Part shown: piece by piece, positions 43,372 through 63,493 of the stretch
How positions within the stretch are numbered: the stretch's first letter is position 1
How the letters are laid out: every line of letters begins with the position of its first letter
Assembly: GCF_914271545.1 (NCBI RefSeq)
Contig: NZ_CAJZAH010000004.1
Coordinates: forward strand, 62,001 to 126,000
Origin: Cupriavidus respiraculi
GTDB lineage: Bacteria > Pseudomonadota > Gammaproteobacteria > Burkholderiales > Burkholderiaceae
Reading direction: 5' to 3'
DNA length: 64,000 nucleotides
The notes under the pieces: model-generated
Seen by the model: the letters and a program-made list of their open reading frames with translations, nothing else
Databases searched by the model: none
What the model was told of the DNA's origin: nothing
Translations under genes and position numbers: made by a program

Positions 43372-43680
43372 GGGATCGGGCTTGGCAGATGGCCCAACGT
43401 GCGACGGCACCGGCACGTTGGCGGGCTTCCAGCATAGGCAAGGCGCCATGCGCGCGGCGGGACGCGGAAAACGGCCCACGTCAATTCCAGAAATACGCGG
43501 AAAAATGTGATCGTTGTCGTGACAGCCGTCTACAGTAGTCACGAAGGGCCGCGATGCAGCGGTCGCACGGAAGAAACAGCGCACCGGAAAACTTACAAAA
43601 CGCACCACACGTGCGGTAAAAGCGACGCACGGCGCGCGCCGGAATTGCACGCCGCATCGCGGCCGCCGTCATTGCGTGGC

Positions 43681-46832: not shown

Positions 46833-47129
46833 CTGTGTCCCACTCCGGCCCGGGTGATGTGGGAATGTCGCCGCGGCATCCCGGGACCATGCTGCCGGCG
46901 GCATTGTTAATGCGTCGCAAATTGCGTTCCCGCATACGCGGTGCAATGACCCGCAAAAGTAGCGGCCGCTGCCGGCCAAGATTACAAACCCGGGAAAAAA
47001 CGCCAAGTGGTTCGCCGTGCGGCGTGCCACCTGGGCAACGCGCCGCGTGGAACCGAAAGAGAAGCGTTATAACGGTTCTCCGCGATGTGCGCGTCCCGGC
47101 CTTCGCTTCTGCGACGCGCGCGCCACTGT

Positions 47130-47144
47130 TGGCATGCAAGCTGC
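47130..47144 (+). promoter_or_regulatory. Candidate sigma-54 promoter before the plus-strand glycan genes
   Basis: TGGCATG-N4-CTGC followed by A, with GG and GC 12 bases apart; nearly the same as the site at 43681. The predicted start is near 47156, 58 bases before the GT4 gene. The rest of the 381-base gap 46833-47213 shows no gene. Confidence 0.48.
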
Positions 47145-47213
47145 AGAAGTGTTCTCCAGAGGCGGGCGGAGTGCGGCTACCCCGGGCTGCGGCTCGACTC
47201 TTCGGAGCCAACT

Positions 47214-48485: not shown

Positions 48486-48498
48486 GAGAGGAGTCGCC

Positions 48499-49608
48499 AT
48501 GAAGGAATCCCATCGCCGCCGCATCCTGGTGACCGGGGGCGCCGGCTTTCTCGGCTCCCACCTGTGCGACCGGCTGGTGCAGGCCGGCCACGACGTGCTG
48601 TGCGTCGACAACTTCTATACCGGCAGCAAGGACAATATCGCCCACCTGCTGCGCGAGCCGAACTTCGAGTTGATGCGGCACGACATCACGTTCCCGCTGT
48701 ACGTGGAAGTCGACGAGATCTACAACCTCGCCTGCCCCGCCTCGCCCGTGCACTACCAGAGCGACCCGGTGCAGACCACCAAGACCAGCGTGCACGGCGC
48801 CATCAACATGCTGGGACTGGCCAAGCGCGTGAAGGCGCGCATCCTGCAGGCCTCCACCAGCGAGGTCTATGGCGATCCGGAGATGCATCCGCAGCAGGAG
48901 TCCTACTGGGGCCATGTCAATCCCATCGGCCGCCGTTCGTGCTACGACGAGGGCAAGCGCTGCGCCGAGACGCTGTTCATGGACTACCATCGCCAGCACG
49001 CGGTGGATGTGCGCATCGCCCGCATCTTCAATACCTATGGTCCGCGCATGCATCCCAACGACGGGCGCGTGGTATCCAACTTCATCACGCAGGCGCTGGC
49101 GGGCGAGCCGCTGACCGTCTACGGCGATGGCGCGCAGACGCGCTCGTTCTGCTACGTGGACGATCTGATCGAGGGGCTGATCCGGCTGATGAACGCGCCG
49201 GCCGCGCGCGGCACGCCGATCAACCTGGGCAACCCGTGCGAGATGAGCATGCTGGACATCGCGCGCCAGGTGCTGCTGGCCACGGGCTCGCAGTCGCCCA
49301 TCGTGATGCGGCCGCTGCCGGAGGACGATCCGCGCCAGCGCTGCCCCGACATCACGGCGGCGGGCGAGATCCTCCAATGGACGCCCCGCGTGCCGCTGGC
49401 CGAAGGACTGCGCCGCACGGTGGCCTACTTCGCCGCGCGGCCGCGGGCCAACGTAGCCACGCGCGAGGGCAACACGACAATAGCCACCGTCCCGCCCGCG
49501 TCCAACGAGCCGGCGGTGGCGATCGGCCCGACGAACGCGGCGCCGGCCACACCGCTGCGCGCAAAAGGCGCGGGCGCGGCACGGCTCGCCACCGGGATGC
49601 CAAAATGA
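48499..49608 (+). CDS. UDP-glucuronate decarboxylase (UDP-xylose synthase-like)
   Basis: 369 residues of the extended SDR family. NAD binding is at [10 protein letters not shown] (12-21), and the catalytic Tyr149-x3-Lys153 is in [11 protein letters not shown]. The sequence [28 protein letters not shown] and [19 protein letters not shown] is characteristic of UXS, which converts UDP-glucuronate to UDP-xylose. The last 45 residues are an alanine/threonine/proline-rich extension not found in typical UXS. The start follows AGAGAGGAGTC. It would supply a pentose donor to the adjacent glycosyltransferases (inference). Confidence 0.92.
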
Positions 49609-49651
49609 CCGCCAGCGTTACCTATCTTTCCCAACGCGGCGATGCCCGGAG

Positions 49652-49673
49652 CCTGCCGCGTGCACGCGGCAGG
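49652..49673. repeat. 22-base perfect palindrome between the UXS and PIG-L genes
   Basis: CCTGCCGCGTG followed directly by its reverse complement, without a loop. It lies 100 bases before the candidate sigma-54 promoter of the deacetylase gene, where an activator could bind. It is not a terminator, since no T-run follows. Confidence 0.6.
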
Positions 49674-49772
49674 ACCCCCGGTGAAGCCATCGCTTCCCTT
49701 CCCTGCAAGATTTACTGGGCCGCGGACTGCTTCGCACACCGTTCCCGGCGCTCCCTCACGGTAGTGCCGGCG

Positions 49773-49787
49773 TGGCCCGATCCTTGC
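49773..49787 (+). promoter_or_regulatory. Candidate sigma-54 promoter before the PIG-L gene
   Basis: TGGCCCG-N4-TTGC has a perfect -12 element and one change in the -24 element. The predicted start near 49799 lies after the ATG at 49792, which favours the ATG at 49822 as the true deacetylase start. Confidence 0.42.
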
Positions 49788-49821
49788 GGCAATGAGGTCC
49801 GTCCAGACCCCAGCTGACGCC

Positions 49822-50556
49822 ATGCCTCTTTCGGTTTCCGTTCCGCTCGTGGTGGTATCGCCGCACCTCGACGATGCCGTGTTCAGTTGCGGCAACCTGC
49901 TGGCCGCCTGCCCCGGCTCCATCGTGATCACGGTCTTCGCCGGGATTCCCGACGCCGGCATGGCCGCGCCCGACTGGGACCGGCACGCCGGCTTCACTAC
50001 CGCGGCGCAGTCCATGCATGCACGCCGCGAGGAAGACCGGCGGGCGCTGGCCGCGCTCGACGCCACGCCGGTATGGCTCGATTTTTTCGACAGCCAGTAT
50101 GGCCGCCGCCACACCGCCTCGGAGATCGCCGCGCGCCTCGCCCCGGCCATCGCCGTGCACAACGCCTGCGCTGTGGTCGTGCCGTGCGGACTGTTCCACT
50201 CCGACCACGTACTGACCCACGATGCGTGCGCCCGCCTGTGGCAGGTGCGCGACCGCGACGGGCCGCCGTGGCTTTATTACGAAGAGGCCATTTACCGCCG
50301 CAAGCCCGGCATGCTGCACCAGTTGCTGGCGCGCTGGCACGACAACGGCATCGTCTCGACGCCCGTGGACCTGGCCATCGGTGAGCACACCGCCACCAAG
50401 GCGAGGGCCTGCAATGCCTACGAGTCCCAGCTGGCCATGTTCGACTCAGCCACGCTGAGCGACCTGAGCGCACCCGAGCGCTACTGGCAGTGGGAAAGCG
50501 TCTCGGACAAGCGTGAGGAGTGGCAGCCGGCGCTGGCGACCGAGGGTCACGAGTGA
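49822..50556 (+). CDS. PIG-L family N-acetylglucosaminyl deacetylase
   Basis: 244 residues. The zinc motif is SPHLDDAV (His15, Asp17, Asp18), with a further probable zinc ligand in GLFHSDHVLTH. The family removes acetyl groups from GlcNAc-type sugars or sugar conjugates. The start at 49822 puts the first beta strand (LSVSVPLVVVSPHLDD) at the N-terminus; an in-frame ATG at 49792 would add ten residues. The stop overlaps the GT2 start by 4 bases (GTGA). It belongs to the plus-strand half of the glycan cluster. Confidence 0.88.
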   Translation: MPLSVSVPLVVVSPHLDDAVFSCGNLLAACPGSIVITVFAGIPDAGMAAPDWDRHAGFTTAAQSMHARREEDRRALAALDATPVWLDFFDSQYGRRHTASEIAARLAPAIAVHNACAVVVPCGLFHSDHVLTHDACARLWQVRDRDGPPWLYYEEAIYRRKPGMLHQLLARWHDNGIVSTPVDLAIGEHTATKARACNAYESQLAMFDSATLSDLSAPERYWQWESVSDKREEWQPALATEGHE

Positions 50557-51524
50557 CGGACGACGCGATGCCGTCGGCGGGGGCCGGCGGCGACGGCGAC
50601 GGATTGGGAAGGAAGCAGCACGACCAGCGCGTCAGCGTCGTGGTGCTGACCCACAACCGGCGCGAGTGGCTGCGTGCGACACTGCAGCGGCTGCGCGGAC
50701 TGCCCGAACGGCCGGCCGTCGCGGTAGTCGACAATGGCTCCGAGGACGGCACGGCGCAAATGGTGCGGCGCGATTTCCGCGATTTCGCGCTGCTGCGTGT
50801 GCCGGTCAACCTCGGTGCCGCAGCACGCAATATCGGCGCAGACTGGGCCGCCACCCGCTACGTCGCATTCTGCGACGACGACACCTGGTGGCATCCCGGC
50901 GCACTGGCGAGAGCCGCCGACATCCTCGACCGCTATCCGGACGTGGGCGCGATGACCGCCCGGCTGATGGTGATGCGCGACGGCGGCCGCCTGGAGCCGG
51001 ATCCGACCAGCGAGGTGATGGCGTCCAGCCCCCTGCCCTCCGACGGCCTGCCCGGCCGCGCCATTCTCGGCCTGCTGGCGGGCGCCACGATCTTCCGCAC
51101 TTCGGCATTCCGCGCGGCCGGCGGCTACCACCCGCGCCTGTTCATCGGCGGCGAGGAAACACTGCTGGCGCTGGACCTCGCCTCGCGCGGCTGGCACCTC
51201 ATCTATTCGCCGCAGGTCCTGGCCTACCATCACCCGTGCCCTGTCCGCTCGCACCAGCTGCGCCGCAAGCTGATGGCGCGCAATGCGATCTGGTCGGCGT
51301 GGCTGCGGCTGCCGGCGGGCGCCGCCCTGCGCGAAACCATGCGTACCCTGCCGGCGCTACTGCGCGAGGGCGGCCTTGCCGGCTGCGTGGAACTGGCCAG
51401 CGCCTTGCCGTGGATCGTGCGGGAGCGGACGGTGATCCCTGCATCGGTGGAAAAGATGCGGCGGCGCGTCGTCGATGCCGATGCGCTGTATCGTCCCGGC
51501 CCCGACGCCGACTTCAGCCTCTAG
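50553..51524 (+). CDS. GT2 glycosyltransferase
   Basis: 323 residues from a GTG overlapping the deacetylase stop. The GT-A fold shows VSVVVLTHNRREWLRATL, VVDNGSEDG, NLGAAARNIGADWAA and the metal/nucleotide-binding DDD at 108-110 (AFCDDDTWW). The acceptor-side motif GGEETLLALDLASRGW follows. The family is inverting; the substrate is unknown. It ends 6 bases from the stop of the convergent glycosyltransferase gene, with no terminator between. Confidence 0.9.
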   Translation: MTDDAMPSAGAGGDGDGLGRKQHDQRVSVVVLTHNRREWLRATLQRLRGLPERPAVAVVDNGSEDGTAQMVRRDFRDFALLRVPVNLGAAARNIGADWAATRYVAFCDDDTWWHPGALARAADILDRYPDVGAMTARLMVMRDGGRLEPDPTSEVMASSPLPSDGLPGRAILGLLAGATIFRTSAFRAAGGYHPRLFIGGEETLLALDLASRGWHLIYSPQVLAYHHPCPVRSHQLRRKLMARNAIWSAWLRLPAGAALRETMRTLPALLREGGLAGCVELASALPWIVRERTVIPASVEKMRRRVVDADALYRPGPDADFSL

Positions 51525-51530
51525 CCGGCC

Positions 51531-52478
51531 TCAGCCCGCTACCATTCGCAGCGCGCGGTCCCAGTCGTCGACGAAGCGCTCGATCGCAAAGCGCTCGCGC
51601 GCCGTGCGGCGCGCCTGCTCGCCCCACTGCACGGCCAGGGCCGGATCGGCGAGCAGCGCCTTCATGATCTCGACGAGGCGGTCCACCCGCGTATCGACGA
51701 AGCCGTTGCGGCCGTTGGAAATGGCCGTGCTCATCTCCGTGGTAGCAAGACCGATCACCGGCATGCCGATCGCCATCGCCTCGACCACGGCAAGGCCCAG
51801 GCTGGTATAGCGGATCGGGTTGAAGAAGAAGCGGTAGCGCGAGACGAAACCGGCCAGTTCCGGATTGGGAACCTCGCCCAGCCCCCCGGCCTCCTCGGCC
51901 GCCATGCCGACCAGATCGAGCGGCACCTGCTCTCTCGCCTGTGCGAACACGTCGGCACCGAGCCTGCGTCCGCGCCGGGTCAGATTGTTGACGACGCTGA
52001 TGCCGCGCTCGAGTTCGCCCGTGTAGCGCACCTGCGGATCGACCAGCACGCCATGCTCGATCACGCGCGTCGGCGTGACGCCGTTGTCCCACATCAGCGC
52101 GTTGAACGGCGTCACGTGCACGAGCAGCACGCGGGGATCCTGCACCGGGTGCAGGGTCGCGGTCGGATGCTGCTGGGGCGGGTCGTGTTCGATGAAGACC
52201 GTCGGCAGTTGCCGTTGCGCCTCGCTCAGCAACTCGTGCCGGTCGCGTTCGTAGTGGCTGTGGTGCTGGTACAGCACGCAGTCGAACTGCGTGTCGCGCA
52301 CCTGCTCGTAAGGTACCTCGCGCACGTTGGGCCCCCAGGGCAAGGCGCCGCCGGCGCCGGCATAGCCGGGGGGCGAGCCGGGCTTGGTGACCAGATACAG
52401 CTCGTGTGGCATCTGCGACAGGTAGTACAGATAGTTGCCGTGCACGTGCCAGGTAAGGATGCGCAAACGCTCAGGCAT
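51531..52478 (-). CDS. GT4-like glycosyltransferase
   Basis: 315 residues of the GT-B type. The C-terminal donor region is clear (RYRFFFNPIRYTSLGLAVVEAMAIGMPVIGLATTEM, with the E of the EX7E site in VEAMAIG). The N-terminal half is shorter than in typical GT4 enzymes and starts RILTWHVHGNYLYYLSQMPHELYLV. This form is found in glycan clusters with GT9 enzymes. It is the last gene of the minus-strand operon and its start overlaps the GT9 stop by 8 bases. Confidence 0.85.
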   Translation of the reverse strand: MPERLRILTWHVHGNYLYYLSQMPHELYLVTKPGSPPGYAGAGGALPWGPNVREVPYEQVRDTQFDCVLYQHHSHYERDRHELLSEAQRQLPTVFIEHDPPQQHPTATLHPVQDPRVLLVHVTPFNALMWDNGVTPTRVIEHGVLVDPQVRYTGELERGISVVNNLTRRGRRLGADVFAQAREQVPLDLVGMAAEEAGGLGEVPNPELAGFVSRYRFFFNPIRYTSLGLAVVEAMAIGMPVIGLATTEMSTAISNGRNGFVDTRVDRLVEIMKALLADPALAVQWGEQARRTARERFAIERFVDDWDRALRMVAG

Positions 52479-53571
52479 GGACCGACTCCTTGGCCGCCAC
52501 GCGCCGCGCCGCGGCGATCACGGCGTCCACCGTGATGCGCTGCGCGCAGACATGGCCGATGGGGCATTCTTGATGGAAGCACGGGCGGCACGAAGGATGG
52601 TCCGCCAGCACGATATGGCGCCGTGCATCCAGCGGCGCCCAGCGGGCACTGTCGCTGCCGCAGGACACCACCACGCTGGGGGTGCGCACGGCCGCGGCGA
52701 TATGCGAGGCGCCGGTGTCGTTGCACAGCACGAGGCGCGCATGCGCGACCACCGCGGCCATGGTGCCGAGCGTGGTCTGTCCGCACAGGTCGACCACCGG
52801 CGCGCCGAACGCCTCGCAGAAGCGCCGCGCCAGCGGCATCTCGTCGGTGGAGCCGGTCAGCACGATGCGCCAGTCCTCGCCCAGCACCCTGGCCGCCGCG
52901 GCGAAGCGCTCGACCGGCCAGCGCCGCGACAGCATGCGCGCGCCCGGATGGATGCAGACATAGCGGCCCGCTTCCAGGCCATGCCGCGCGGCCAGTTCGC
53001 GCCAGCCGGCTTCATCGGCCGGCCTCAGCGGGAAGTCCAGATGCGTCCCCGCGGCGGGATAGCCCAGCGCGGTGATCAGCGACAGCAGACGCTCCACCTC
53101 GTTGCCGCCAGGCCAGTCGATCAGCGTCTCGTTGCCGTGCGCGCCGGCGCCGGACGGCTGCGCGGACCCGATCGGCCGAAAGCCCGCCATGCGCCGCGCG
53201 CCGAGCCGGCGCGTGACCTCGTTGCTCACCAGCCCGCTGCCATGCAGCTGGATCGCCAGATCGAAGCGGCGCTCCCGGGCGCCGGCGTAGAACGCTTCGC
53301 TCTCGTCCTCGCGCCAGGGCTGCTCGGGCATGCCGGGCGCCCCCGGGAAGACCATCAGTTCGTCGACCATGGGCGCGAAGCGGTCCACGAACGCCTGCGC
53401 CCACGGCAGGCCGATCAGCGTGATATGCGCGTCCGGTTCGCCCTGGCGCAGCGCGCGCAGCGCCGGTACCGCGACCAGCATGTCGCCAAGCTGCAGCGCG
53501 CGGAACACGGCGATGCGCCGCCGCCCGGACGATGAAGAAGACGGCACGGCCGGCACGGTGGCGTCCGTCAT
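52471..53571 (-). CDS. GT9 (heptosyltransferase-family) glycosyltransferase
   Basis: 366 residues. The N-terminal RIAVFRALQLGDMLVAVPALRAL and the GT9 motifs VCIHPGARMLSRRWPVERFAAAA and LCNDTGASHIAAAVRTPSVVV are characteristic. The cysteine cluster CRPCFHQECPIGHVC resembles that of LPS heptosyltransferases. A serine-rich leader of about 15 residues precedes the fold. It probably adds a heptose or related sugar (inference). Its start overlaps the stop of the GT2 gene upstream by 4 bases, and its stop overlaps the next gene. Confidence 0.92.
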   Translation of the reverse strand: MTDATVPAVPSSSSSGRRRIAVFRALQLGDMLVAVPALRALRQGEPDAHITLIGLPWAQAFVDRFAPMVDELMVFPGAPGMPEQPWREDESEAFYAGARERRFDLAIQLHGSGLVSNEVTRRLGARRMAGFRPIGSAQPSGAGAHGNETLIDWPGGNEVERLLSLITALGYPAAGTHLDFPLRPADEAGWRELAARHGLEAGRYVCIHPGARMLSRRWPVERFAAAARVLGEDWRIVLTGSTDEMPLARRFCEAFGAPVVDLCGQTTLGTMAAVVAHARLVLCNDTGASHIAAAVRTPSVVVSCGSDSARWAPLDARRHIVLADHPSCRPCFHQECPIGHVCAQRITVDAVIAAARRVAAKESVHA

Positions 53572-54554
53572 AGGAAGGCCACCCGGAAGTCGAGCGCGCC
53601 GCGCAGCCGCCAGTACATCGACAGCGGCGGGATCAGGATCGAGGTGACGAACATCTCCGCCACATGCGCGGGTGTCAGCGCCGCGCCGCGCAGCCGCCGC
53701 AGCCAGAACCACAGCGTAAAGGCCGCCCACACGCCAAGCGCCGGCACGGCGACCGACGGCTCGCCGGCCAGGCCCGCGCCCAGCGACACGAGCAGCGCCA
53801 GCACGGTCACGTAGTAGTTCCAGGGCGGTACCGGCCGGATGCGCGTGCGATACAGCCGCGGATGCTTCTTGTAGAGCAGCGCGTCGTAATACACCTTGGC
53901 CTGCGCCGCGATGCTGCTGCCCCAGCGCGCGGGCCGCACCGGATGCGTGACCACCGCCCGCTCCGCGCGGCCGATGGGACCGGCCAACTCCATCAGACGG
54001 AACTGCAGGTCCGAATCCTCGCGCCACGCGCGGGTAAAGCGTTCGTCGAAGCCGCCGATGCGCAGCAGCGCCTCCCGGCGCACGAAGCAGTTCGCGGTGA
54101 CGAACTCCGCCGTGGCGAGTCCGCCGGTATCGCGCTCGTGGTCGGTCGGCCGCGCCGGCAGCGGCACCACCACGCGGCCGGACATCCCGCTGGACTGCGG
54201 CGATGCGGCCATCGCCGCGAGGCCTTCGCGCAACCAGTGCCGGTCCGGGATGGTGTCGTCGTCGGTGAATGCCACCACGGGGCTTCTGGCCATGCGCCAG
54301 CCGAGATTGCGCGCGCCCGCCGGGCCCTGCGTCTCGGGCACCGGCGTGTAGCGCAGCACACCATGCACGCTGGCCGAAGCCAGCTCGCGCACGACGTCTT
54401 CCACTTCGCGCTGGCAGCCGTCGTCGCAGACGATCACCTCGTACGGCTGCCCCTCCAGGTCCTGGGCGCACAGCGCCTCAAGGCAGCGGCGCAACAGGTC
54501 GGGCCGCCGGTAGGTGGGCACGACCACCGAGATGACGGGCTCAGGCGCGTGCAC
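53568..54554 (-). CDS. GT2 glycosyltransferase with C-terminal membrane segments
   Basis: 328 residues. The GT-A catalytic domain has VISVVVPTYRRPDLLRRCLEALCAQD, VCDDG and the DDD motif at 98-100 (AFTDDDTIPD), with WREDSDLQFRLMELAG in the acceptor region. Two hydrophobic segments follow (VTVLALLVSLGAGLAG and ALGVWAAFTLWFWL), so it is probably membrane-associated. It overlaps the carbamoyltransferase gene upstream by 14 bases and the GT9 gene downstream by 4, indicating tight coupling. Confidence 0.9.
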   Translation of the reverse strand: MHAPEPVISVVVPTYRRPDLLRRCLEALCAQDLEGQPYEVIVCDDGCQREVEDVVRELASASVHGVLRYTPVPETQGPAGARNLGWRMARSPVVAFTDDDTIPDRHWLREGLAAMAASPQSSGMSGRVVVPLPARPTDHERDTGGLATAEFVTANCFVRREALLRIGGFDERFTRAWREDSDLQFRLMELAGPIGRAERAVVTHPVRPARWGSSIAAQAKVYYDALLYKKHPRLYRTRIRPVPPWNYYVTVLALLVSLGAGLAGEPSVAVPALGVWAAFTLWFWLRRLRGAALTPAHVAEMFVTSILIPPLSMYWRLRGALDFRVAFL

Positions 54555-56301
54555 GGTTGTCCTCCGGCCGCGACTTCTCCAGCAGGAACGGGCCGATCAC
54601 CAGCGCGTCCAGCGGCGAGGTCCAGAAGCACTCGACCGCGTCGCGCGGCGTGCACACGATGGGCTCGCCCCGTGTATTGAACGACGTGTTGACCAGCACG
54701 GGCACACCCGTGCGCCGCTCGAACGCCGCCAGCAGGTCGTAGTAGGCGGGATTTTGCTCGCGCCTGACGGTCTGCACGCGCGCGGTGCCGTCCACGTGGC
54801 GCACCGCCGGAATCAGGCTCTCGCGCCCCGGGCGGACGTCGAAGATGAAGAGCATGAACGGCGCACGCCAGTCGCCCGGCTTGGTCGCGTCGAACCAGTC
54901 CGCCACGCGTTCTTCCATCACCACCGGCGCCACCGGACGGAAGTCCTCGCGATCCTTGATCTCGTTCAGGCGCTGCTGCATGGTCGGGTCGATCGGCGAG
55001 GCCAGGATCGAGCGAGCGCCGAGCGCGCGCGGGCCGAACTCCATCCGGCCCTGGAACCAGCCGATGATCTTGTTCTCCGCCAGCAGCGCCGCGGTTTCCT
55101 CGGCCACGTCGTCCATCCGGCGGTAGGACAGCTTGGCCTGGTCCAGGAAGGCGGCAATATCCTGCTCCGAATACTCGGGGCCCAGGTACGCGTGCTCCAT
55201 CGACCAGTTCCGCGAGGGGCGGCCGCGCTGCTGGTAGTCGATCCACAGCGCCGCGCCCAGCGCCGTGCCCGCATCGCCCGCGGCGGGCTGGACCCACACC
55301 CCGTCGAACGGGCTGCGGTCGCGCACGCGAGCGTTCATCACGCAGTTCAGCGCGACACCTCCGGCCATGGCGAGATTGCGCTCGCCGGTCTCGTTGGCCA
55401 GCCACTCCGTCATGGTGAGCACGGTTTCCTCGAGTACCGCCTGCAGGGAGCGCGCGATATTGAAGTGCTCGGCCTCGAACGCGCTGCCGCGCACCCGTGC
55501 CGGCCCGAGCACGCTCTCCAGGTCGAACTGCGCCACGCGATAGCCACCCTCGCGGTCGGTGCGCACCATGTCGCGGAACACGTCGATGCGCGTGGGCTCG
55601 CCATACGAGGCGAGCGCCATCACCTTGTACTCGTCGGACGAATGCAGGAAGCCGAGATGGCGCGTGACGCGCTCGTACAACAGGCCCAGCGAATCGGGCA
55701 GGTCGATCTGCTTGATGCGGCGATACTCCCGCCCGTCGAAGACGCCATAGCTGGTGGTGGCGCGCTCGCCGCGGCCGTCCATCGTCAGCACCGCGCAGCG
55801 GTCGAAGGGCGCGGCGAGAAAGGCGCTGGCCTCGTGGGACATATGGTGCTCGACGAAATGCCAACGGAAGGGGCCGTCCGCGGTCACGCCGGCGAAGCGG
55901 CGCGACAGATGATGCGGCACGCCGGAGGTCAGCAGGCGCGGAGCGTTGACCACGTAGGACAGGAACAGCGGGTCCCATGGCGACCCGGTGGCGGTGGGCC
56001 GCGCGTGCCGGGACGGCTCCAGCGGCAGGGTCAGTGTCTCGTCCCCGCGCCGCTCCCCGAGCTGGATGGCGGGGTCGTAGGAGTAGGCGATATGGTCCAC
56101 GTCGGCCAGCGTGATGCCCGCCTGCGCGAGGCAATAGTCGATCGCGTGGTAAGGCAGCTCCCAGGCACTGAACGGCACCGGCCGCTTGCCATGTTTGATG
56201 TGCGTGAAGCGCTCGTCTTCCGCGGCGGCGATCACGACGCCGTCGCGCACCAGACAGGCTGCCGTGTCATGAAATGCCGCATTGATTCCAAGGGTGTACA
56301 T
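54541..56301 (-). CDS. Carbamoyltransferase (NodU/CmcH family)
   Basis: 586 residues. The N-terminal ASKHA-like domain begins TLGINAAFHDTAACLVRDG, contains HHMSHEASAFLAAPFDRCAVLTMDG and has the LAMAGGVALNCVMN motif. The C-terminal domain includes FGPRALGARSILASP and VLVNTSFNTRGEPIVCTPRDAVECF. These enzymes transfer carbamoyl from carbamoyl phosphate to a hydroxyl of a sugar or antibiotic, for example in Nod factors. It therefore predicts a carbamoylated product of this cluster. The start MYTLGINA follows a GATCGGTCC leader without a strong ribosome site; the GT9 gene upstream ends 22 bases away. Confidence 0.93.
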   Translation of the reverse strand: MYTLGINAAFHDTAACLVRDGVVIAAAEDERFTHIKHGKRPVPFSAWELPYHAIDYCLAQAGITLADVDHIAYSYDPAIQLGERRGDETLTLPLEPSRHARPTATGSPWDPLFLSYVVNAPRLLTSGVPHHLSRRFAGVTADGPFRWHFVEHHMSHEASAFLAAPFDRCAVLTMDGRGERATTSYGVFDGREYRRIKQIDLPDSLGLLYERVTRHLGFLHSSDEYKVMALASYGEPTRIDVFRDMVRTDREGGYRVAQFDLESVLGPARVRGSAFEAEHFNIARSLQAVLEETVLTMTEWLANETGERNLAMAGGVALNCVMNARVRDRSPFDGVWVQPAAGDAGTALGAALWIDYQQRGRPSRNWSMEHAYLGPEYSEQDIAAFLDQAKLSYRRMDDVAEETAALLAENKIIGWFQGRMEFGPRALGARSILASPIDPTMQQRLNEIKDREDFRPVAPVVMEERVADWFDATKPGDWRAPFMLFIFDVRPGRESLIPAVRHVDGTARVQTVRREQNPAYYDLLAAFERRTGVPVLVNTSFNTRGEPIVCTPRDAVECFWTSPLDALVIGPFLLEKSRPEDNRARA

Positions 56302-56323
56302 GGGACCGATCCTCCGGGGGTGA

Positions 56324-57634
56324 TCACGTTGCCAGCGAGGTGGCGATTGCCGCGTAGGCCGTGCCTGCCGGGCCGGCGGCGTTCTCATGCACGGGGGGCC
56401 GCGTCAGCGCGAGCGCGGATGCATCGATCCTGCGTTCGACGCCGGCAGCCAGCGCCGGCCGCAGCGGCACCGTGGCGAGATCGGACGCGACCATCCCGCC
56501 CGTGCCCGCGTCGGCGCGCGCGGCGGCCAGCAATGCCAGCGTGGCGTCGATGGCTTCCTGCGGCGTCACGTCCGCCAGGCAGCGATGGTGCTGCTGTGGG
56601 CAGACGCTCTTGTAGCAGTAGCGGCACGGCACGTCCGCAAACAGCGTGCGGTGGGGCACCTGCCACGGCGTGTGCTGCGGGTTGGTCAGCGCATACAGAT
56701 CCACCACGGGCGTGCCCAGCGCGGCTGCCAGATGCACCGGCCCGCTGTTGTTCGATACCAGCACGTCGGCACTCTGGATGAGCGCCCCCATCTCGCCCAG
56801 CGTCAGGGCGCCGGCCTGGCCCAGCACGCGCGGATGGGCGGCCAGCTTGCGCACCGCCTCGACCAGCGGCGCCTCGCCGTTGCTGCCGGTGACCAGCACC
56901 AGCGCGCCGGTGCGGCTTGCCAGCGCGCGCGCCACCTCGGCGAAGCGCTCTGGCGGCCAGCGGCGCGAGGCCGCGGTGGCGCCGGGATGGACCACCACGC
57001 AGGGCGGCATCGGGCCTGCGCCCGGCATGCGCAACGGATCCAGCGCGAGGAGCCGGCGTGCGACATTGTCCTGGTCCGCGGGCTGGACCTGGAAGCGCAG
57101 GCGCGTATCCGCAACGTCCGCGCCCACGGTGGCGACCAGGTCCAGTTGCCGCTGCACCTCGTGGCGGACCTGCTCGTGCGGCTCGGTCTCGCGGACCCAG
57201 TCGGTCAGCAGGTCATAGGGGTTCTCGCGGCAATGCGCCAGGCGCAGCGGAATGCCGGCCGTCGTACACAGCAGCGCCGCGGGCAGCGGACTCTGGCTAT
57301 AGACGGTAAAGATGACCGCGGCGTCGAAGCGTCCCGCCGCGATGCGCTGCACCCACTGCATCATCGCCGTGTCGGCGCGGTCCGCGCCATCGCCACCGCG
57401 CTGGCGGGAGACGCCGCTGCCGTGCTTGACCCACGGCGCATCCCAGGCCCACACCATGTCCACCATCGGCAGATGGCGCGCCAGGCTGGCGGCGCCATGC
57501 GAAGTGAGCAGCGTGATATGCCGGCCGGGGGCCGACTCCTTCAGGGCCTGCATCGCCGGCGTGCTCATCAGCACGTCGCCCATATTGTCCAGCCGGATGC
57601 ACAGGATGCGCCGTGCGGCGCTCCACGCGCTCAT
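56324..57634 (-). CDS. GT9 (heptosyltransferase-family) glycosyltransferase, long form
   Basis: 436 residues. The N-terminus RILCIRLDNMGDVLMSTPAMQAL, the donor-site VVHPGATAASRRWPPERFAEVARAL and VSNNSGPVHLAAALGTPVVDLYALTNP define GT9. The cysteine motif CRYCYKSVCPQQHHRC matches heptosyltransferases. About 65 C-terminal residues form an alanine-rich extension absent from WaaC/WaaF. The start overlaps the HAD phosphatase stop by 4 bases. It is the second GT9 enzyme of the operon. Confidence 0.92.
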   Translation of the reverse strand: MSAWSAARRILCIRLDNMGDVLMSTPAMQALKESAPGRHITLLTSHGAASLARHLPMVDMVWAWDAPWVKHGSGVSRQRGGDGADRADTAMMQWVQRIAAGRFDAAVIFTVYSQSPLPAALLCTTAGIPLRLAHCRENPYDLLTDWVRETEPHEQVRHEVQRQLDLVATVGADVADTRLRFQVQPADQDNVARRLLALDPLRMPGAGPMPPCVVVHPGATAASRRWPPERFAEVARALASRTGALVLVTGSNGEAPLVEAVRKLAAHPRVLGQAGALTLGEMGALIQSADVLVSNNSGPVHLAAALGTPVVDLYALTNPQHTPWQVPHRTLFADVPCRYCYKSVCPQQHHRCLADVTPQEAIDATLALLAAARADAGTGGMVASDLATVPLRPALAAGVERRIDASALALTRPPVHENAAGPAGTAYAAIATSLAT

Positions 57635-58278
57635 GACGCCACCGCCTCGGACAGCGCGGTGCGGGCCGCGCCCATCACTGCGTCCGCCGCGACGATGCGG
57701 GCCGCGGCATCCAGGTCGGCCACCACATAGTCCGGCGTGCGCAGCGGCGAGCGCACCCATTCGGTCTCGTTGCCGCAGTCCACGAGGATGGCGCGGCAGC
57801 CGGCGGCGCGGCCGGCCTCCACGTCGTCGAGGATGTCGCCCACCATCCACGAGCGGCGCAAATCCAGCCCATGCCTCACGGCTGCCTCCTCGAGCATCGC
57901 GGTGCCGGGCTTGCGGCAGCGGCAACGGCCCGCGTACGCGAGGACCTGGCCCTCGGGATGGTGCGGGCAGTACAGGAAGTCGGCCAGCACCGCGCCGTTG
58001 GCTTCGAACAGTTCGGCCAGGCGCTGCCGCACCGCCTCCAGCGCCTGCGGCGCGAAGCGGCCCAGCGCGATACCCGGCTGGTTCGACACCACGATCAGCG
58101 GCAGGCCCAGCTCGCCAAGGCGGCGCAGCGCCTCGGCGGCCTGCGGGGCCAGCCGCATATGCGCCGGGTCGACGTTGTACGGCACGTTGACCAGCAGCGT
58201 GCCGTCCTTGTCGAGCAGCACGCCGGGGCGGCGCCCGGCGTCCGCGGCCGCCGGCGCGGTGCGTGCGATTACGGCCAT
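57631..58278 (-). CDS. HAD-IIIA phosphatase, D-glycero-manno-heptose 1,7-bisphosphatase-like (GmhB)
   Basis: 215 residues. The nucleophile and acid/base are Asp23 and Asp25 (LLDKDGTLLVN). The GmhB-type zinc motif is present: Cys104-Pro-His106-His, then Cys119-x-Cys121-Arg-Lys-Pro. MVGDILDDVEAGRAAGC closes the active site. GmhB dephosphorylates heptose bisphosphate on the way to ADP- or GDP-heptose. With two GT9 enzymes it suggests heptose in the product (inference). It overlaps the SDR gene by 10 bases and the GT9 gene by 4. Confidence 0.9.
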   Translation of the reverse strand: MAVIARTAPAAADAGRRPGVLLDKDGTLLVNVPYNVDPAHMRLAPQAAEALRRLGELGLPLIVVSNQPGIALGRFAPQALEAVRQRLAELFEANGAVLADFLYCPHHPEGQVLAYAGRCRCRKPGTAMLEEAAVRHGLDLRRSWMVGDILDDVEAGRAAGCRAILVDCGNETEWVRSPLRTPDYVVADLDAAARIVAADAVMGAARTALSEAVAS

Positions 58279-59006
58279 GAGGTTTCCTTCATCGGCAGCA
58301 CCATCACCTCCGGAATCACCGTTTCCTCGGGCTGGGTCAGCACGAAGCGCACCGCGCGCGCCACGCTGGCCGGGTCTTGCAGCGTCGATTCGTCGATATC
58401 GGGAAAGCGGTCCAGCAGGAACGGCGTGCGCATGCCGCCGGCCACGATGGCGGACACCTTGATGCCATGGGGCCGCAGTTCGGCATGCAATGCATGCGAC
58501 AGGCCCAGCAGGCCCCACTTGGTGGCGTGGTAGGCCGACGCATTGGGCCAGGCGCGCTTGGATGCCGTCGAAGCGATATTGACGATATGCCCGCTGCCCT
58601 GGGCCTTCATCATCGGGACCACGGCGCTCGACATCAGATACGGGCCATAGAGGTTGACCATCAGTACGCGGTGCCACTGCTCGTTGTCCACCTCGTCCAC
58701 GGGCAGCGTGATATCGATGGCCGCGTTATTGACGATGCCGTCGATGCGGCCGGTGCGCTCGCGCACCTGGTCCAGCGCGGCGCGCACCGCGGCCGGATCG
58801 GCCACGTCGAAGCCGAGCGCGTAGGTGTGCTCGCTGCCCTGTCCCAACCGCTCGGCGCAGTCGCGCGCGCGGCGCTCGTTCACGTCGGCGACCACCAGGT
58901 TCGCACCGGCTTCGGCCAGCATCTGGCAAATCGCCGCGCCGAGCCCCTGCCCGCCACCGGTCACCAGAAAGGCCTTGCCTTGCAGGCCTTGCGTCGCATC
59001 GTTCAT
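58269..59006 (-). CDS. Short-chain dehydrogenase/reductase
   Basis: A 245-residue classical SDR: NAD(P)-binding TGGGQGLGAAIC (16-27), NNAAIDI, and the catalytic serine and SAYHATKWG tyrosine/lysine motif. As first gene of the glycan operon it may modify a sugar or nucleotide sugar, for example by keto-reduction. The start MNDATQGLQG is preceded by a GGGATCTCAGCC leader. The operon downstream overlaps at nearly every junction. Confidence 0.92.
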   Translation of the reverse strand: MNDATQGLQGKAFLVTGGGQGLGAAICQMLAEAGANLVVADVNERRARDCAERLGQGSEHTYALGFDVADPAAVRAALDQVRERTGRIDGIVNNAAIDITLPVDEVDNEQWHRVLMVNLYGPYLMSSAVVPMMKAQGSGHIVNIASTASKRAWPNASAYHATKWGLLGLSHALHAELRPHGIKVSAIVAGGMRTPFLLDRFPDIDESTLQDPASVARAVRFVLTQPEETVIPEVMVLPMKETSWP

Positions 59007-59114
59007 GGCTGAGATCCCTTGTTCGCTGATGGGTGAATGGAGGAATGCGTGATGCGGCCGCCCTGTGTGGACGGCGCGGGGCCGTCCGGGTTCGTTTGCC
59101 GCATCACCGGTTCA

Positions 59115-59129
59115 GCGAATTGCATGCCA
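59115..59129 (-). promoter_or_regulatory. Candidate sigma-54 promoter of the minus-strand glycan operon
   Basis: On the minus strand TGGCATG-N4-TCGC followed by T, with GG and GC 12 bases apart. The -24 half equals that of the plus-strand glycan promoter at 47130; the -12 half has one change. The predicted start is near 59103, about 97 bases before the SDR start. Confidence 0.38.
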
Positions 59130-59241
59130 GCCGGGGCGCCGTGATAACGCGTTGATTCAAAAGCGACTTCTAAGGCAGCAGCAGTTTTTTCCGGTATGGC
59201 GCTGCCGTTTGTGCCGGTAGTGGTAAAAACTGCAGCGCCGC

Positions 59242-59745
59242 TCAGCCGGCGAGCGCCTGGCGCAGGCGCGATTGCGCGATGCCGCGCATCAGCGACGCCA
59301 CGCATTCGGCGAATGCCTCGTCGAACCAGGGATTGGCGCCGCTGACCGCTACCACGATGCCGTGATGGACGGCGGCGCCGCCGAGCATCGACTCGCCTTC
59401 GCGCAACAGATGGGGAAAGCGCGCCTGCACGTGGTCGCTGGCGAGGCCGGTGCGCCAGCTCACCCGGGCCTTCTCGCGCGCATACCACGCATAGTCGGCA
59501 TCCCAGCGCTCGCGGCCCGGGGTCGAGAACTCATGCAGGATCGCCTCCTCGAACGTGCACTCCGACGGATGCCTGGCGGGGTCCATCACCACCACGTGCA
59601 GAAAGCCGCTTTCACCCACGTCGCGGTCGCGCACGGCGGCCTCGAGCATGGGCAGCGCCATCTGGACGGCGCGGCGGGCACAGTGAAGGTTGGCGAATCG
59701 GCTGGCGCCCGCGGCGCGGTTCGGTTCCGACGACAGATGCTCCAT
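59242..59745 (-). CDS. Conserved hypothetical protein
   Basis: A 167-residue soluble protein without signal peptide or membrane segments. The centre contains VGESGFLHVVVMDPARHPSECTFEEAILHEFS and GGAAVHHGIVVAVSGANPWFDEAFAECVAS. I do not recognise the family; some features recall small-molecule-binding heme-degrading-like (HbpS/GlcG) proteins, but weakly. It begins 54 bases after the ABC-receiver fusion gene on the same strand and is probably co-transcribed. Confidence 0.65.
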   Translation of the reverse strand: MEHLSSEPNRAAGASRFANLHCARRAVQMALPMLEAAVRDRDVGESGFLHVVVMDPARHPSECTFEEAILHEFSTPGRERWDADYAWYAREKARVSWRTGLASDHVQARFPHLLREGESMLGGAAVHHGIVVAVSGANPWFDEAFAECVASLMRGIAQSRLRQALAG

Positions 59746-59799
59746 GGTGACTCCTGGAAGAATGAAAAACGGGGGATGGGGGACAGGTATTGCGGAAAA

Positions 59800-62514
59800 T
59801 CAGTTCGGCGGCCGGGTCGGCGCCAACGCGTCGGGGTCGCGCATGCGGGCGAGCGAGCGGATCGCCGCCACCAGTTCGCCGACCTGCACCGGCTTGGACA
59901 GATACAGCTGGAAGCCGGCCATCATCGCGCGGATGCGGTCCTGCGCCTCGGCATGCCCGGACAGCGCGATGGCCGTCAGGCGCCGCGACAGTGGCACGTT
60001 GCACTCGGTCTCCAGCCGGCGCACGCGGCGCAGCACCGTATAGCCGTCTTCGTCATCGAGCGCGATATCGCAAAGTAGCACCGGCGGCCAGTCCGCGGGC
60101 GACTCCGCGCGCAGCGTCGCGATCAGCTCGTCGCCGCGGGCGAAGGCGGTGGCCTGCGCGCCGAAGTCGCCCAGCGCGGCGGTCAGCACCTCGCGCGTGG
60201 GCTCGTCGTCGTCCAGTACCAGAATGCGCAATCCCTGCAAGGCATTGGACTCCAGCAAGGGGGCGCTCTCGGTGGGCACGACCGGCGGCAGTGCCGGCGT
60301 TTCGCGCACCGGCCGCAGCGGCATGCTGAGCAGGAAGGCGTGCGCGGCCGGGTCCGCGGTGAGCGCGATGCCGTGCTCGCCAAGCCAGGCCTGCATGCCC
60401 TGCACGTCCTGCAGCGGCATCTCGCGGCCGGGCGCGGACACGCGCATGCAGGCCTCGCCGCCCTGCCGCTCCAGCCGCAGCTCCACCCGGCCGCCCGGTT
60501 CGATGCCGTCGATGATCAGGTTGCACAGGTCCCAGATCGCCTTCTGCAGCATGCCGGGATCGCCGGTAATGCTCAGCTCGGTCTCGCTGGAGACGGTAAA
60601 CAGATTGACCTGGCGCTCGGCGATGGTCTCGCGCAGGCCGTCGATGACGCCGGCCACGATCAGCTCCAGGCGGATGGGTTGCAGCGCCAGCCGCTGCTCG
60701 GTGCGCTCCAGTTCGCGCTGCTGCTGTTGCAGGCGCCACATCTGCGCGTAGACGCCGCGCTTTTCCAGCAGCGTCTGGTGGTCGCCCTCCTCCACGATGC
60801 GGCCGTGCTCCATCACGAGGATATGGTCGGCATCCGCGATGGTGGACAGACGGTGCGCGATGATCAGCGCGGTGCGCTCCTTGGCGACCTCGGCCAGCTC
60901 CTGCTGGATCGCCCGCTCCGAGCGCGTATCCAGCGCGGAGGTGGCCTCGTCGAAGACCACGATGGGCGGCTTCTTCAGCAGGGCGCGGGCGATGGCCACG
61001 CGCTGGCGCTCACCGCCGGACAGGCGCACGCCACGCTCGCCCACCGGCGTCTCGTAGGTATCGGGCAGGCGGTCGACAAACGATTCGAGCTGCGCCGCGC
61101 GCGCCGCCGCGACGATGTCCGAGCGCGTCGCGCCCTCGCGCCCATAGCCGATGTTGTAGGCGATGGTGTCGTTGAACAGGATGGTGTCCTGCGGCACGAT
61201 GCCGATCACTTCGCGCAGGCTGGACTGCGTCACCAGGCGCAGGTCCTGGCCATCGATCTTGATCGCGCCGCTGTCGGGTTGATAGAGACGGAACAGCAGC
61301 CGCGCCAGCGTCGATTTGCCCGAGCCGCTGCCCCCGACCACGGCCACCGTCTGGCCGGCGCCGACCTTGAAGCTCACATCCCACAGCGTCTGCCGGCTGG
61401 GGTCGTAGCTGAAGTTGACGTGGTCGAACACGATTTCGCCGCGCGTGATCACCAGCGGCCGCGCCCCTGGCGCGTCGTGGTCCTCGCCCGGCGCGCCATG
61501 GGCGTCGAGCAGCGCGAACAGGCGCTCGACCTGGGTCATGGCGTCGTTCGACTCGCGGAAGATGAAGCCCAGCGTATTGAGCGGCAGCACCACCTGGATG
61601 ATGTACGCGTTGATCAGCACCAGGTCGCCCACCGTCAGCGCGCCCTGCACGACGCGTTGCGTCGCCAGCAGCATGACCATCGCCACGCCCACCGCGATGC
61701 ACGCGCTCTGGCCGATATGCAGCGACGACAGCGCGTACTGGTTCTCCACGCTGACGCCAACCCAGCGGTCCAGCAGCGTCGACAGGCGCCGCGTCTCGAA
61801 CGACTCGCGCGCGAAGAACTTGACCGTGTCGTAGTTCAGCAGGCTGTCTACCACCCGGCTGTTGGTCTGGGCCTCCACCGCGTTGACCTTGCGCTGGATG
61901 CGGGTGCGCCGCCGTGTCAGCACGAAGGTGTAGCTCGCGTACAGCACGAAGGTGCCGAGAATGATCAGCGCGAAGCTGGCCCCGTAGGCGGCGATCATGA
62001 TGACCAGCACCGAGGCGATCTCCATCAGCGTCGGCACGATGGTGAAGACCGCCACGCCCAGCAGGAAGCCGATCGCGGCCGTGCCCTTCTCCAGATCGCG
62101 GATCACGCCGCCGGTTTCGCGGCGCGAATGGAAGCGCGCGCCCAGCGCATGCAGATGCGCGAAGGTGCGCTCCATGAAGGTGGCGACGGTGCGCTGCGTG
62201 ACGAAGGCGAATACCACGTCCCGCAGTTCGTTGAAGGCGTTGCCGAGCAGCCGCAGGATGGCGTACGCCAGCACGAGGAAGACCGGCATCGAGATCGCCG
62301 CGCCGGCCATGGCGGCCGCCCCCGTGGCCACCGGCGCGACCTCGTCGACGATGTGCTTGAGGACCAGCGGCACGCCGATCGCCGCGGCCTTGGCCAGCAG
62401 CAGCAAGGCGATGGCGATGCCCACGCGCAGGCGGTAGCGCCAGATGGCGCGCCAAAGCTCCGCGGCGATCCGGCGCTTGGAGGCGGGTGGTGGCGCGGCG
62501 TGCGTACCGGGCAT
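59800..62514 (-). CDS. Atm1-type ABC exporter fused to a degenerate kinase ATPase region and a receiver domain
   Basis: 904 residues in one frame. The transmembrane part (20-330, about six helices) carries the Atm1/HMT1 pattern SLLNYDTVKFFARE. The nucleotide-binding domain (355-590) is complete: Walker A GGSGSGKST (394-402), signature LSGGERQ (498-504), Walker B IVVFDE (518-523) and switch His554. A glutamine-rich helix (594-612) leads to about 615-735, resembling a histidine-kinase ATPase domain that lacks an H-box, has Asp669 in place of the N-box asparagine, and lacks DxGxG. The last 130 residues form a full receiver: acidic Asp768-770, phospho-acceptor Asp816, Ser852 and Lys874. Atm1 proteins export glutathione or sulfur compounds; the receiver suggests phosphorylation-controlled transport (inference). 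Confidence 0.9.
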   Translation of the reverse strand: MPGTHAAPPPASKRRIAAELWRAIWRYRLRVGIAIALLLLAKAAAIGVPLVLKHIVDEVAPVATGAAAMAGAAISMPVFLVLAYAILRLLGNAFNELRDVVFAFVTQRTVATFMERTFAHLHALGARFHSRRETGGVIRDLEKGTAAIGFLLGVAVFTIVPTLMEIASVLVIMIAAYGASFALIILGTFVLYASYTFVLTRRRTRIQRKVNAVEAQTNSRVVDSLLNYDTVKFFARESFETRRLSTLLDRWVGVSVENQYALSSLHIGQSACIAVGVAMVMLLATQRVVQGALTVGDLVLINAYIIQVVLPLNTLGFIFRESNDAMTQVERLFALLDAHGAPGEDHDAPGARPLVITRGEIVFDHVNFSYDPSRQTLWDVSFKVGAGQTVAVVGGSGSGKSTLARLLFRLYQPDSGAIKIDGQDLRLVTQSSLREVIGIVPQDTILFNDTIAYNIGYGREGATRSDIVAAARAAQLESFVDRLPDTYETPVGERGVRLSGGERQRVAIARALLKKPPIVVFDEATSALDTRSERAIQQELAEVAKERTALIIAHRLSTIADADHILVMEHGRIVEEGDHQTLLEKRGVYAQMWRLQQQQRELERTEQRLALQPIRLELIVAGVIDGLRETIAERQVNLFTVSSETELSITGDPGMLQKAIWDLCNLIIDGIEPGGRVELRLERQGGEACMRVSAPGREMPLQDVQGMQAWLGEHGIALTADPAAHAFLLSMPLRPVRETPALPPVVPTESAPLLESNALQGLRILVLDDDEPTREVLTAALGDFGAQATAFARGDELIATLRAESPADWPPVLLCDIALDDEDGYTVLRRVRRLETECNVPLSRRLTAIALSGHAEAQDRIRAMMAGFQLYLSKPVQVGELVAAIRSLARMRDPDALAPTRPPN

Positions 62515-62596
62515 GTCGTGCTACCGGCTCGCCGGAGCCCGAGGTGGCAGGCCGGAGAGACCCCCGGCGCGCGGCCTCAAGGAAATCCGCATCGGA

Positions 62597-63493
62597 TCAG
62601 GAGCGGTTGTCCACGGGCGGCGCCCCCGGCGTCGCGTTGCCGGGGTCGCGCAACTGCTGCTCGCCCACCCCCGGAGGCGACTCGCCGCGCCGTACCTTGC
62701 GGTCGATGTCCTTGTCGTCCTGCGGTTCCGGCGTGGTGGTGGCGCCGCGCACGAGGTTCGGCCCCGTATCGCGCTCCTCCGGTGGCCGGTACGACGCGGC
62801 CTGCTCCCAGTCCTCGCGGCGGCTGCCAGTGCCCTGTCCGTCCTCTTGCCCCTGCTGCACCTGGTTGGCCCCCTGTCCCTGCTGCGTGCCCTTGGCCGCG
62901 TCGTCGTTGCCTGTTGCCACGGTGTCGTCCTTTCGTTGAAACGATGTCGATGGTTGTGATGGCGCCGATGGTTCCGCCGCACGCTCGCCCACCGCCTGGT
63001 CGATCTCCGCGCCCGGATCTTCGTTGCCGGTAAATTCCACGGCCGCCGCGCCGAACTGGCCGGAGCGGGCGTTATCCGGGCCCGTGGTACCGGTGGCTTC
63101 GCTGTCGTAGGCGCGGCCGGGCCGCTGAGAGCCCTGGGCGGTGCCGCCAGTGTCGGTGCCGCGCGGGGCACTCTGCTGCGCCACTGGCATCGGCACGGTG
63201 AGCGCGGCGGGGTCGAAGTCGGTCCAGCGGCCGTTCTCCCAGCGCCCTTCCGCGCGTTCGACATCGCGCGCGCCGGCGGCGTTGAGAATGTCGGCGGCCT
63301 GCGTCATCGCCTCGCCCTCGGCCCGGGCGGAAAGCAGCACGCCCGCGGGGCGGTTGCCGCGCGCGGTGCCGGCATCGCCGCCCACGCTGAAGATCGATAC
63401 GTCCCACACCGAGAATCCCCGCGCGTAGAGTTCGCGGGCCGCCCGCTCGGCATCGGGCAACGTCGGAAAACGTCCTGCCACTATGGACGACAT
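62597..63493 (-). CDS. Stress-type protein with folded N-terminus and long disordered tail
   Basis: 298 residues. The first 80 (VAGRFPTLPDAERAARELYARGFSVWDVSIFSV) look like the ferredoxin-like fold of general-stress proteins of the 17M type, where a short alpha/beta domain binds or senses at the envelope. From about 110 on, the sequence is glutamine-, glycine- and acid-rich and probably disordered (TQQGQGANQVQQGQEDGQGTG). It lies 82 bases upstream of the ABC-receiver gene on the same strand and may be its operon partner. I do not assign a function. Confidence 0.7.
   Translation of the reverse strand: MSSIVAGRFPTLPDAERAARELYARGFSVWDVSIFSVGGDAGTARGNRPAGVLLSARAEGEAMTQAADILNAAGARDVERAEGRWENGRWTDFDPAALTVPMPVAQQSAPRGTDTGGTAQGSQRPGRAYDSEATGTTGPDNARSGQFGAAAVEFTGNEDPGAEIDQAVGERAAEPSAPSQPSTSFQRKDDTVATGNDDAAKGTQQGQGANQVQQGQEDGQGTGSRREDWEQAASYRPPEERDTGPNLVRGATTTPEPQDDKDIDRKVRRGESPPGVGEQQLRDPGNATPGAPPVDNRS

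Follow-up and report, generated by a model that had tools for sequence, protein, structure and literature searches.

The window analysed here is a 64,000-nucleotide stretch of Cupriavidus respiraculi DNA (contig NZ_CAJZAH010000004.1, positions 62,001 to 126,000), and the gene that concerns us, at 59800-62514 on its minus strand, is a single unbroken frame of 904 codons. The encoded protein is an Atm1-type ABC exporter continued by a helix, a CA domain (the ATPase fold of histidine kinases) without ATP-binding motifs, and a two-component receiver domain. Pfam placed ABC_membrane (E 6e-35), ABC_tran (E 9e-34) and Response_reg (E 5e-16) far over their cut-offs, while of the CA domain it detected only a trace, HATPase_c at residues 651-705 (E 0.079, under the cut-off). 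An initial annotation, made from the letters of the window, had described an ABC exporter, a kinase-ATPase-like region and a receiver on one chain; frame, Pfam and alignments bear this out, and the Walker A, signature and Walker B motifs, His554, Asp768-770, Asp816, Ser852 and Lys874 all lie where it had put them. Walker A, Walker B, signature and H-loop are intact, with G394, K400, S499, D522, E523 and H554 kept in 34/34 distinct fused proteins. The host genome comprises 5.59 Mb in 18 contigs and has 90 Response_reg matches. The gene, its domains and the conserved cluster beside it are listed in Table 1.

Table 1. Position, strand and basis of the fused exporter gene, its domains and residues of interest, and the genes of the neighbouring cluster (window coordinates).
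Feature	Position	Strand	Basis
Whole fused protein, 904 amino acids (P0001)	59800..62514	-	frame and Pfam
ABC exporter transmembrane domain, residues 32-311	61582..62421	-	Pfam ABC_membrane
Nucleotide-binding domain of the exporter, Pfam residues 379-526, with intact signature and Walker B	60937..61380	-	
Joining helix, residues 588-610 (VYAQMWRLQQQQRELERTEQRLA), in the place of a kinase DHp domain	60685..60753	-	
Pseudo-CA domain, residues ~611-735; fold of a histidine-kinase ATPase, with G1, ATP lid and G2 absent and N-box altered	60310..60684	-	
Receiver domain, residues 764-886	59857..60225	-	Pfam Response_reg and conservation
Asp816, predicted phosphorylation site	60067..60069	-	invariant in 34/34
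Gln207, at the position of NaAtm1 Arg210 (glutathione-site position in the available text of PMC9000953)	61894..61896	-	
His266, at the position of NaAtm1 Asn269 (glutathione-site position, same source)	61717..61719	-	
o167, conserved small protein of 167 amino acids, separated from the fusion by 54 bases on its downstream side; family with a weak likeness to HbpS	59242..59745	-	
SDR oxidoreductase of the conserved cluster	58269..59006	-	
Open frame with GmhB-like HAD phosphatase (domain residues 152-329; true start not refined)	57631..58677	-	
Open frame with GT9 heptosyltransferase-like enzyme (true start not refined)	56324..57925	-	
Carbamoyltransferase (CAR)	54541..56388	-	
GT2 glycosyltransferase	53568..54554	-	
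Open frame with second GT9 heptosyltransferase-like enzyme (true start not refined)	52471..54471	-	
GT4 glycosyltransferase	51531..52478	-	

Comparison across genomes supports both the fusion and its conservation. When the whole protein was searched against 60 genomes, its own included, 13 others held a near-full-length match at 73-81% identity, and the remainder matched the exporter half only, at 53% identity or less; the nearest named relatives of the window's genome are Cupriavidus species, at 80-82% identity. A profile of the C-terminal part was matched over its full span (from profile position 1 or 2 through at least 274, counted from the profile-search listing) in 97/398 Burkholderiaceae genomes, the ABC half being confirmed by alignment for the loci read, a subset of the 97. 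Two of these matches lie in short frames (530 amino acids in genome G410, 322 in G261) and the others in frames of at least 891; seven of the 97 have one stop within the matched stretch. Seven further genomes, of genus g48, match the second part of the C-terminal profile, and the two copies read there (loci L127 and L128) are both fused, with about 90 extra residues between pseudo-CA domain and receiver. Genome G283 (L117) has two full-span fused copies. Among 399 genomes of the order, the fusion was also present in G775, G714, G494 and G740, which belong to two other Burkholderiales families; in all we found it in Cupriavidus, Paraburkholderia, Burkholderia, Caballeronia and other Burkholderiales. 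Outside Burkholderiales no fusion was found among 321 genomes of the class at E <= 1e-45, a threshold below which a strongly divergent one might fall: this draw returned the window itself and two matches that begin at profile positions 25 and 21, as kinases do, in frames of 749 and 2259 amino acids.

The domain order is conserved within Burkholderiales, and the pattern that the initial annotation had named as fatal to the fusion, homologues always ending near residue 610 beside a separate receiver gene, is not what these genomes hold. Burkholderia multivorans and Paraburkholderia sprentiae both have complete replicons in which the gene is annotated as one coding sequence. In a plasmid collection, Caballeronia and Cupriavidus records cover 97% of the fused protein and a B. 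cenocepacia record only 54%; near-identical DNA there was confined to a Cupriavidus record, which covers most of the gene. Because the same continuous frame recurs in many independent genomes, and as a single coding sequence in complete replicons, we discarded the idea that a sequencing or assembly error has joined two genes, which is now hardly conceivable.

By predicted structure and by alignment, the middle region is a real CA fold without ATP chemistry. A pattern search between exporter and receiver found H-box, G1 and G2 motifs in 0/34 distinct fused proteins, which rejects the protein as an active kinase and agrees with the earlier remark that the phospho-acceptor histidine is missing and the ATP-binding boxes altered: by motif, this kinase ATPase is dead. 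Alignment with intact hybrid kinases (L142, for comparison, has HELRTP, LLSNAVKF, DDGEGI and GLGLG) showed that the N-box and G1 are replaced, with a gap of about 25 residues where the kinases have the ATP lid and G2. A few lineages still have an Asn resembling that of the N-box (e.g. LVSNEIAC), and HATPase_c is detected at E <= 1 in 8/29 aligned members (best 9.5e-4). Structure prediction of the C-terminal part, which the initial annotation had proposed, gave a confident CA and receiver fold (AlphaFold2, 22 relatives in the alignment; mean pLDDT 88.2, pTM 0.58). The best Foldseek match in the PDB to the whole C-terminal piece was the hybrid kinase ShkA (E 1.5e-12, 301 columns), with a root-mean-square deviation of 16 reflecting a different placement of CA and receiver relative to each other; the CA domains of CusS, DivL, ThkA and MprB also match. 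The full-length AlphaFold model is weaker (pLDDT 75, pTM 0.53), and we read no domain packing from it.

The receiver, in contrast to the dead kinase part, looks phosphorylatable, and the earlier claim that it has every catalytic residue holds across the family. Asp768, Asp769, Asp816 and Lys874 are invariant in the 34 fused rows, with Ser in 20 and Thr in 14 of them at position 852, so all 34 have the DD/D/(S,T)/K active site of a response regulator. Measured against a hybrid histidine kinase, the protein has the receiver with its acceptor site but neither an H-box DHp domain nor an ATP-binding CA domain. Ten further Cupriavidus frames, first missed by our span filter (two of them, L008 and L030, share the same tail), keep the receiver site and likewise have no H-box, G1 or G2. 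In nine Cupriavidus pairs, the ratio of non-synonymous to synonymous substitution (dN/dS) was 0.00-0.42 for the receiver, 0.04-0.48 for the pseudo-CA domain and 0.12-0.71 for the linker, against 0.02-0.15 for the transporter domains; the values are rough, several dS being high. Receiver and pseudo-CA domain are under purifying selection in these pairs, and in a few close pairs one or the other falls below the transmembrane part. With the fusion conserved, the kinase dead and the receiver apparently phosphorylatable, it is reasonable to infer that transport is controlled through Asp816.

Trees suggest where the two halves came from. In a tree of CA-receiver segments (72 rows, 69 of them different), a single branch with 100/100 support splits the 33 fused rows from 39 kinase rows, the latter being the best profile matches and neighbours rather than a broad sample. 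An exporter tree of 79 rows gathers all fused proteins into one branch (support 100) together with three unfused rows, of which the Oxalobacteraceae proteins L038 and L073 are the nearest unfused relatives. The fork that unites the fused lineages apart from L038 and L073 is weak (support 84); one fusion event in Burkholderiales with later losses is therefore likely, not proven. Among the Burkholderiaceae rows read of the exporter branch, the exceptions to the fused form are all in genus g34 or are broken or lost copies. In g34, five proteins (G184, G155, G162, G211 and G147) keep exporter and pseudo-CA domain and stop before the receiver, and that of G251 (L190) is a shortened exporter with neither. 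At L129 (G153), L130, L134 (G287), L039, L181, L182 and L194 the fused gene is broken or largely gone; the cluster described below is still nearby at L129, L181, L182 and L194 despite this.

We then compared the exporter half with its relatives. Among the best 60 of 599 PDB matches, the closest solved structures are NaAtm1, the plant exporter AtAtm3, ABCB7 and ABCB6 (E ~1e-148, residues 16-599); membership of the MsbA family was rejected (TIGR02203 equivalog score 417 bits, cut-off 602). According to the available text of PMC9000953, eight residues are conserved in the glutathione pockets of AtAtm3, NaAtm1, ScAtm1, ABCB7 and ABCB6; the published residue numbers minus 118, a conversion of our own to NaAtm1 numbering, reproduce T, R, R, N, Q, L, G, R. 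The fused protein departs from this set. All 40 rows of the exporter branch read TRQHQLGR: 31/31 fused, 6/6 shorter (the five receiver-less g34 proteins and the frame-broken L129) and 3/3 unfused (L038, L073 and L190). The Asn is universal among the 38 other Atm1-type rows, and their third position holds R (23), Y (14) or H (1), so that both changes, R to Q207 and N to H266, occur in 40/40 branch rows and in 0/38 others. Extra frames repeated the pattern: 11 from the branch are all TRQHQLGR, and five others all keep the Asn, none with both changes. The genome that holds the window also encodes an unfused paralogue, in which the site has its canonical form, TRRNQLGR.

This argues for a substrate different from that of canonical Atm1 without amounting to proof. 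The initial annotation had thought of a glutathione or sulphur compound. A canonical Atm1/HMT1 transporter for glutathione conjugates or sulphur compounds, to which a switch is incidentally attached, would suit both the closest solved structures and the six of eight glutathione-site residues that are kept; we nevertheless consider it rather improbable, given that R210 has become Q and N269 H in all branch rows read while the same-genome paralogue retains both, and given the conserved glycan-gene context. On the other side of the scale, the sequence is of the Atm1 and not the MsbA type, the eight-residue comparison is one of position with no measured ligand, and the Arg position varies in 15/38 of the other relatives.

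Comparison likewise links the fused gene to a glycan cluster, whose conserved order is ABC-o167-SDR-HAD-GT9-CAR-GT2-GT9-GT4. Among the loci read, those of g31, g35 (L170) and g48 have the genes in this order behind the fusion, and those of g34 behind the receiver-less form; Cupriavidus loci show it for the part read, some with ~4 kb between ABC gene and o167. Two f4 genomes have the cluster without o167 and a third has it only partly, while at the g33, g44 and g49 loci read, and at one g35 locus, the ABC gene stands beside the run in a different orientation. CAR was detected (E <= 1e-150) in 125/398 Burkholderiaceae genomes, including 95/97 fused ones, and neither is present in 271/398 (Fisher p 6e-62, a value exaggerated by shared ancestry); within Cupriavidus, 26/27 CAR genomes have the fusion. 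A full-length-profile search (E <= 1e-150) covered 17 genomes, 15 with CAR and no full-span fusion and two fused ones without CAR (G261 and G388). In 12 of the 15, the sole match is an exporter frame of 634-769 amino acids ending near profile position 590-600; of the other three, G273 has no match, G115 has a 931-amino-acid frame reaching position 730, and G248 has a 374-amino-acid exporter fragment near CAR. An apparent receiver remnant lies ahead of o167 at L182 and L194 and beyond GT4 at L181. The o167 family gives an HbpS-like match in 5/18 rows (best E 2.7e-4); the window's own copy has no Pfam match, and no notable PDB sequence match was found (best E 0.45).

A second operon at 47085-51524 on the plus strand (GT4, NAD epimerase, PIG-L and GT2) converges on the carbamoyltransferase cluster, and PIG-L is also near the B. 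multivorans and P. sprentiae fusions. The Pseudomonas lipopolysaccharide-core locus, as the available text of PMC8005017 presents it, combines the carbamoyltransferase WapO, a PIG-L gene, glycosyltransferases and a lipid A-core transporter. Both loci thus have a carbamoyltransferase, heptosyl- and other glycosyltransferases, PIG-L and an exporter, but the exporter here is Atm1-type and the carbamoyltransferases are likened by kind of gene, not by homology. From this likeness of toolkit, the likeliest product of the cluster would be a carbamoylated heptose glycan. Together the two operons are apparently an uncharacterised carbamoyl-heptose-type glycan locus; we found no description of this cluster in the open-licence PMC literature.

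A separate kinase would be needed to phosphorylate Asp816, and the initial annotation had pointed to two in the window. The histidine kinase at 41605-43371 contains HATPase_c, and a dCache domain also matches it, though short of the cut-off. This kinase was detected in 7/60 Cupriavidus genomes (E <= 1e-60, matches not resolved into orthologue and paralogue, the window's own genome having a 50% paralogue) and is missing at this threshold from 19 of the at least 26 among those 60 that have the fusion, so we rejected it as a general partner; because all seven genomes with it also carry the fusion, it may have a lineage-specific role. The frame at 15502-17481 has no Pfam match on the minus strand, and a receiver is placed there on the plus strand. 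Window positions 41605-43650 (-) and G000:C4:47621-49342, on the same contig, encode related sensor kinases that are 50% identical and have relatives (E <= 1e-60) in only 6/59 other genomes of the genus. A CA-receiver profile run over the flanks read of 69 loci found no universal adjacent kinase. Frames matching it do lie near the gene or cluster at L031, L033, L034, L036, L165, L170, L174 and L192-L194, among others, their H-box and CA motifs having been checked for L034 alone; in the window's nearest relatives, L021-L026, the flanks read hold no kinase-like frame.

We propose that, in what was most likely a single event within Burkholderiales, an Atm1-type exporter gained the C-terminal half (CA and receiver) of a hybrid histidine kinase, and that the kinase histidine and ATP-binding motifs were lost while the receiver was retained. 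A separate kinase or phosphotransfer protein would phosphorylate Asp816, and in response the receiver might pair differently, or pack differently against the pseudo-CA domain and the helix leaving the nucleotide-binding domain. Such a change would promote or block closure of the two ATPase domains, with either sign compatible with what we see, and export would be set by a two-component signal at the level of the protein rather than of transcription. The cargo, of which we are less sure, may be a carbamoylated heptose-containing glycan, or a lipid-linked or small precursor of it, and not glutathione. That this exporter is phospho-gated by a separate kinase and linked to a carbamoylated heptose-type glycan strikes us as evenly balanced between true and false.

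Several observations weigh against it. No kinase is a constant neighbour; G775 has ABC gene and o167 but no sugar genes within the 20 kb read; in G064 fusion and CAR are on different contigs; and, beside the inflated co-occurrence test, 30/125 CAR genomes are without a full-span fusion. The receiver-less proteins of g34 and L190 add to these, and neither the switch nor the exporter is therefore essential to the cluster. The loss of the receiver in g34 with the pseudo-CA domain kept also suits a different account, that of a structural tail: the two added domains would do no more than hold the exporter dimer steady or provide a binding site for a partner, and phosphorylation would have lost its role. 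The kinase part is already dead, and dN/dS of both domains exceeds that of the transporter domains in most of the nine pairs; such a tail would hardly need the five phosphorylation positions that are kept in 34/34 distinct proteins, and we regard it as improbable. We give no more credence to the converse arrangement, a transporter that serves as sensor, with the exporter reporting its own flux and the receiver acting towards a separate kinase as a sink for phosphate or as a docking site, for signalling and not gating. Published transporter-linked kinases (BceAB-BceS, Ks-Amt5 and CrbS; available text of PMC8534201, PMC9100948 and PMC5715377) and the hybrid-kinase-like frames near gene or cluster in several lineages speak for it, but the fused protein, whose CA has no ATP motifs, does not serve as the kinase, and no single kinase is always near, L021-L026 included.

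Phosphorylation gating of the exporter would differ from these precedents in direction. In the available texts, Ks-Amt5 is a transporter-kinase fusion and BceS-BceAB a transporter-kinase complex (PMC8534201), with the SLC5/STAC transporter kinases CrbS and CbrA as further cases (PMC9100948, PMC5715377). Ks-Amt5, CrbS and CbrA resemble our protein in that a transporter fold is covalently joined to two-component domains; they are described as sensor kinases, whereas here only the receiver is intact and the transporter would be on the receiving end. Hybrid histidine kinases, with ShkA the best fold match, share the succession of CA and receiver, homologous by profile, fold and tree, but the fused protein is without the DHp histidine, G1, lid and G2, has an altered N-box, and its membrane part is an ABC exporter. 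With the Atm1-type exporters (NaAtm1, AtAtm3, ABCB7 and ABCB6) it has in common the fold, all ABC motifs and most of the glutathione site; it differs by ~300 extra residues, the R210Q and N269H equivalents and the glycan-cluster context.

MetN, ModC and MalK also have C-terminal regulatory domains after the nucleotide-binding domain, which bind a small molecule or protein; like them, the fused protein has a domain in a position to gate closure, here a phospho-receiver instead. The usual targets of two-component receivers are DNA, second-messenger enzymes or protein partners, and we found no description of an ABC exporter with a receiver in the open-licence PMC literature, where absence is weak evidence. 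If our proposal is true, a primary transporter would here be gated directly by phosphorylation, through a receiver whose chemistry was kept while the attached kinase died. A whole new class of primary transporters, ABC exporters switched on or off at the level of the protein by a His-Asp phosphorelay and controlling carbamoylated heptose-type glycan export across Burkholderiales, is possible, though we lean slightly against it. The same data suggest that many Burkholderiales have a carbamoyl-heptose glycan pathway which has apparently yet to be characterised.

Some minor observations concern the surroundings of the gene. A sigma-70 promoter scan of 58900-63000 gave no site, which is uninformative in a GC-rich genome. 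We rejected the idea of a low-oxygen (lxa) locus: the window's own genome has 15 universal stress protein matches, none of them on contig C4. Where the ABC gene is gone, at L182 and L194, o167 stays beside the receiver-like remnants. At the far end of the cluster, L189-L194 have a receiver-containing protein beyond GT4, of 521-526 amino acids where complete (L191 and L194), and at this place the B. multivorans record has two sigma-54 regulators. Genomes G283 and G176 have two CAR copies each.

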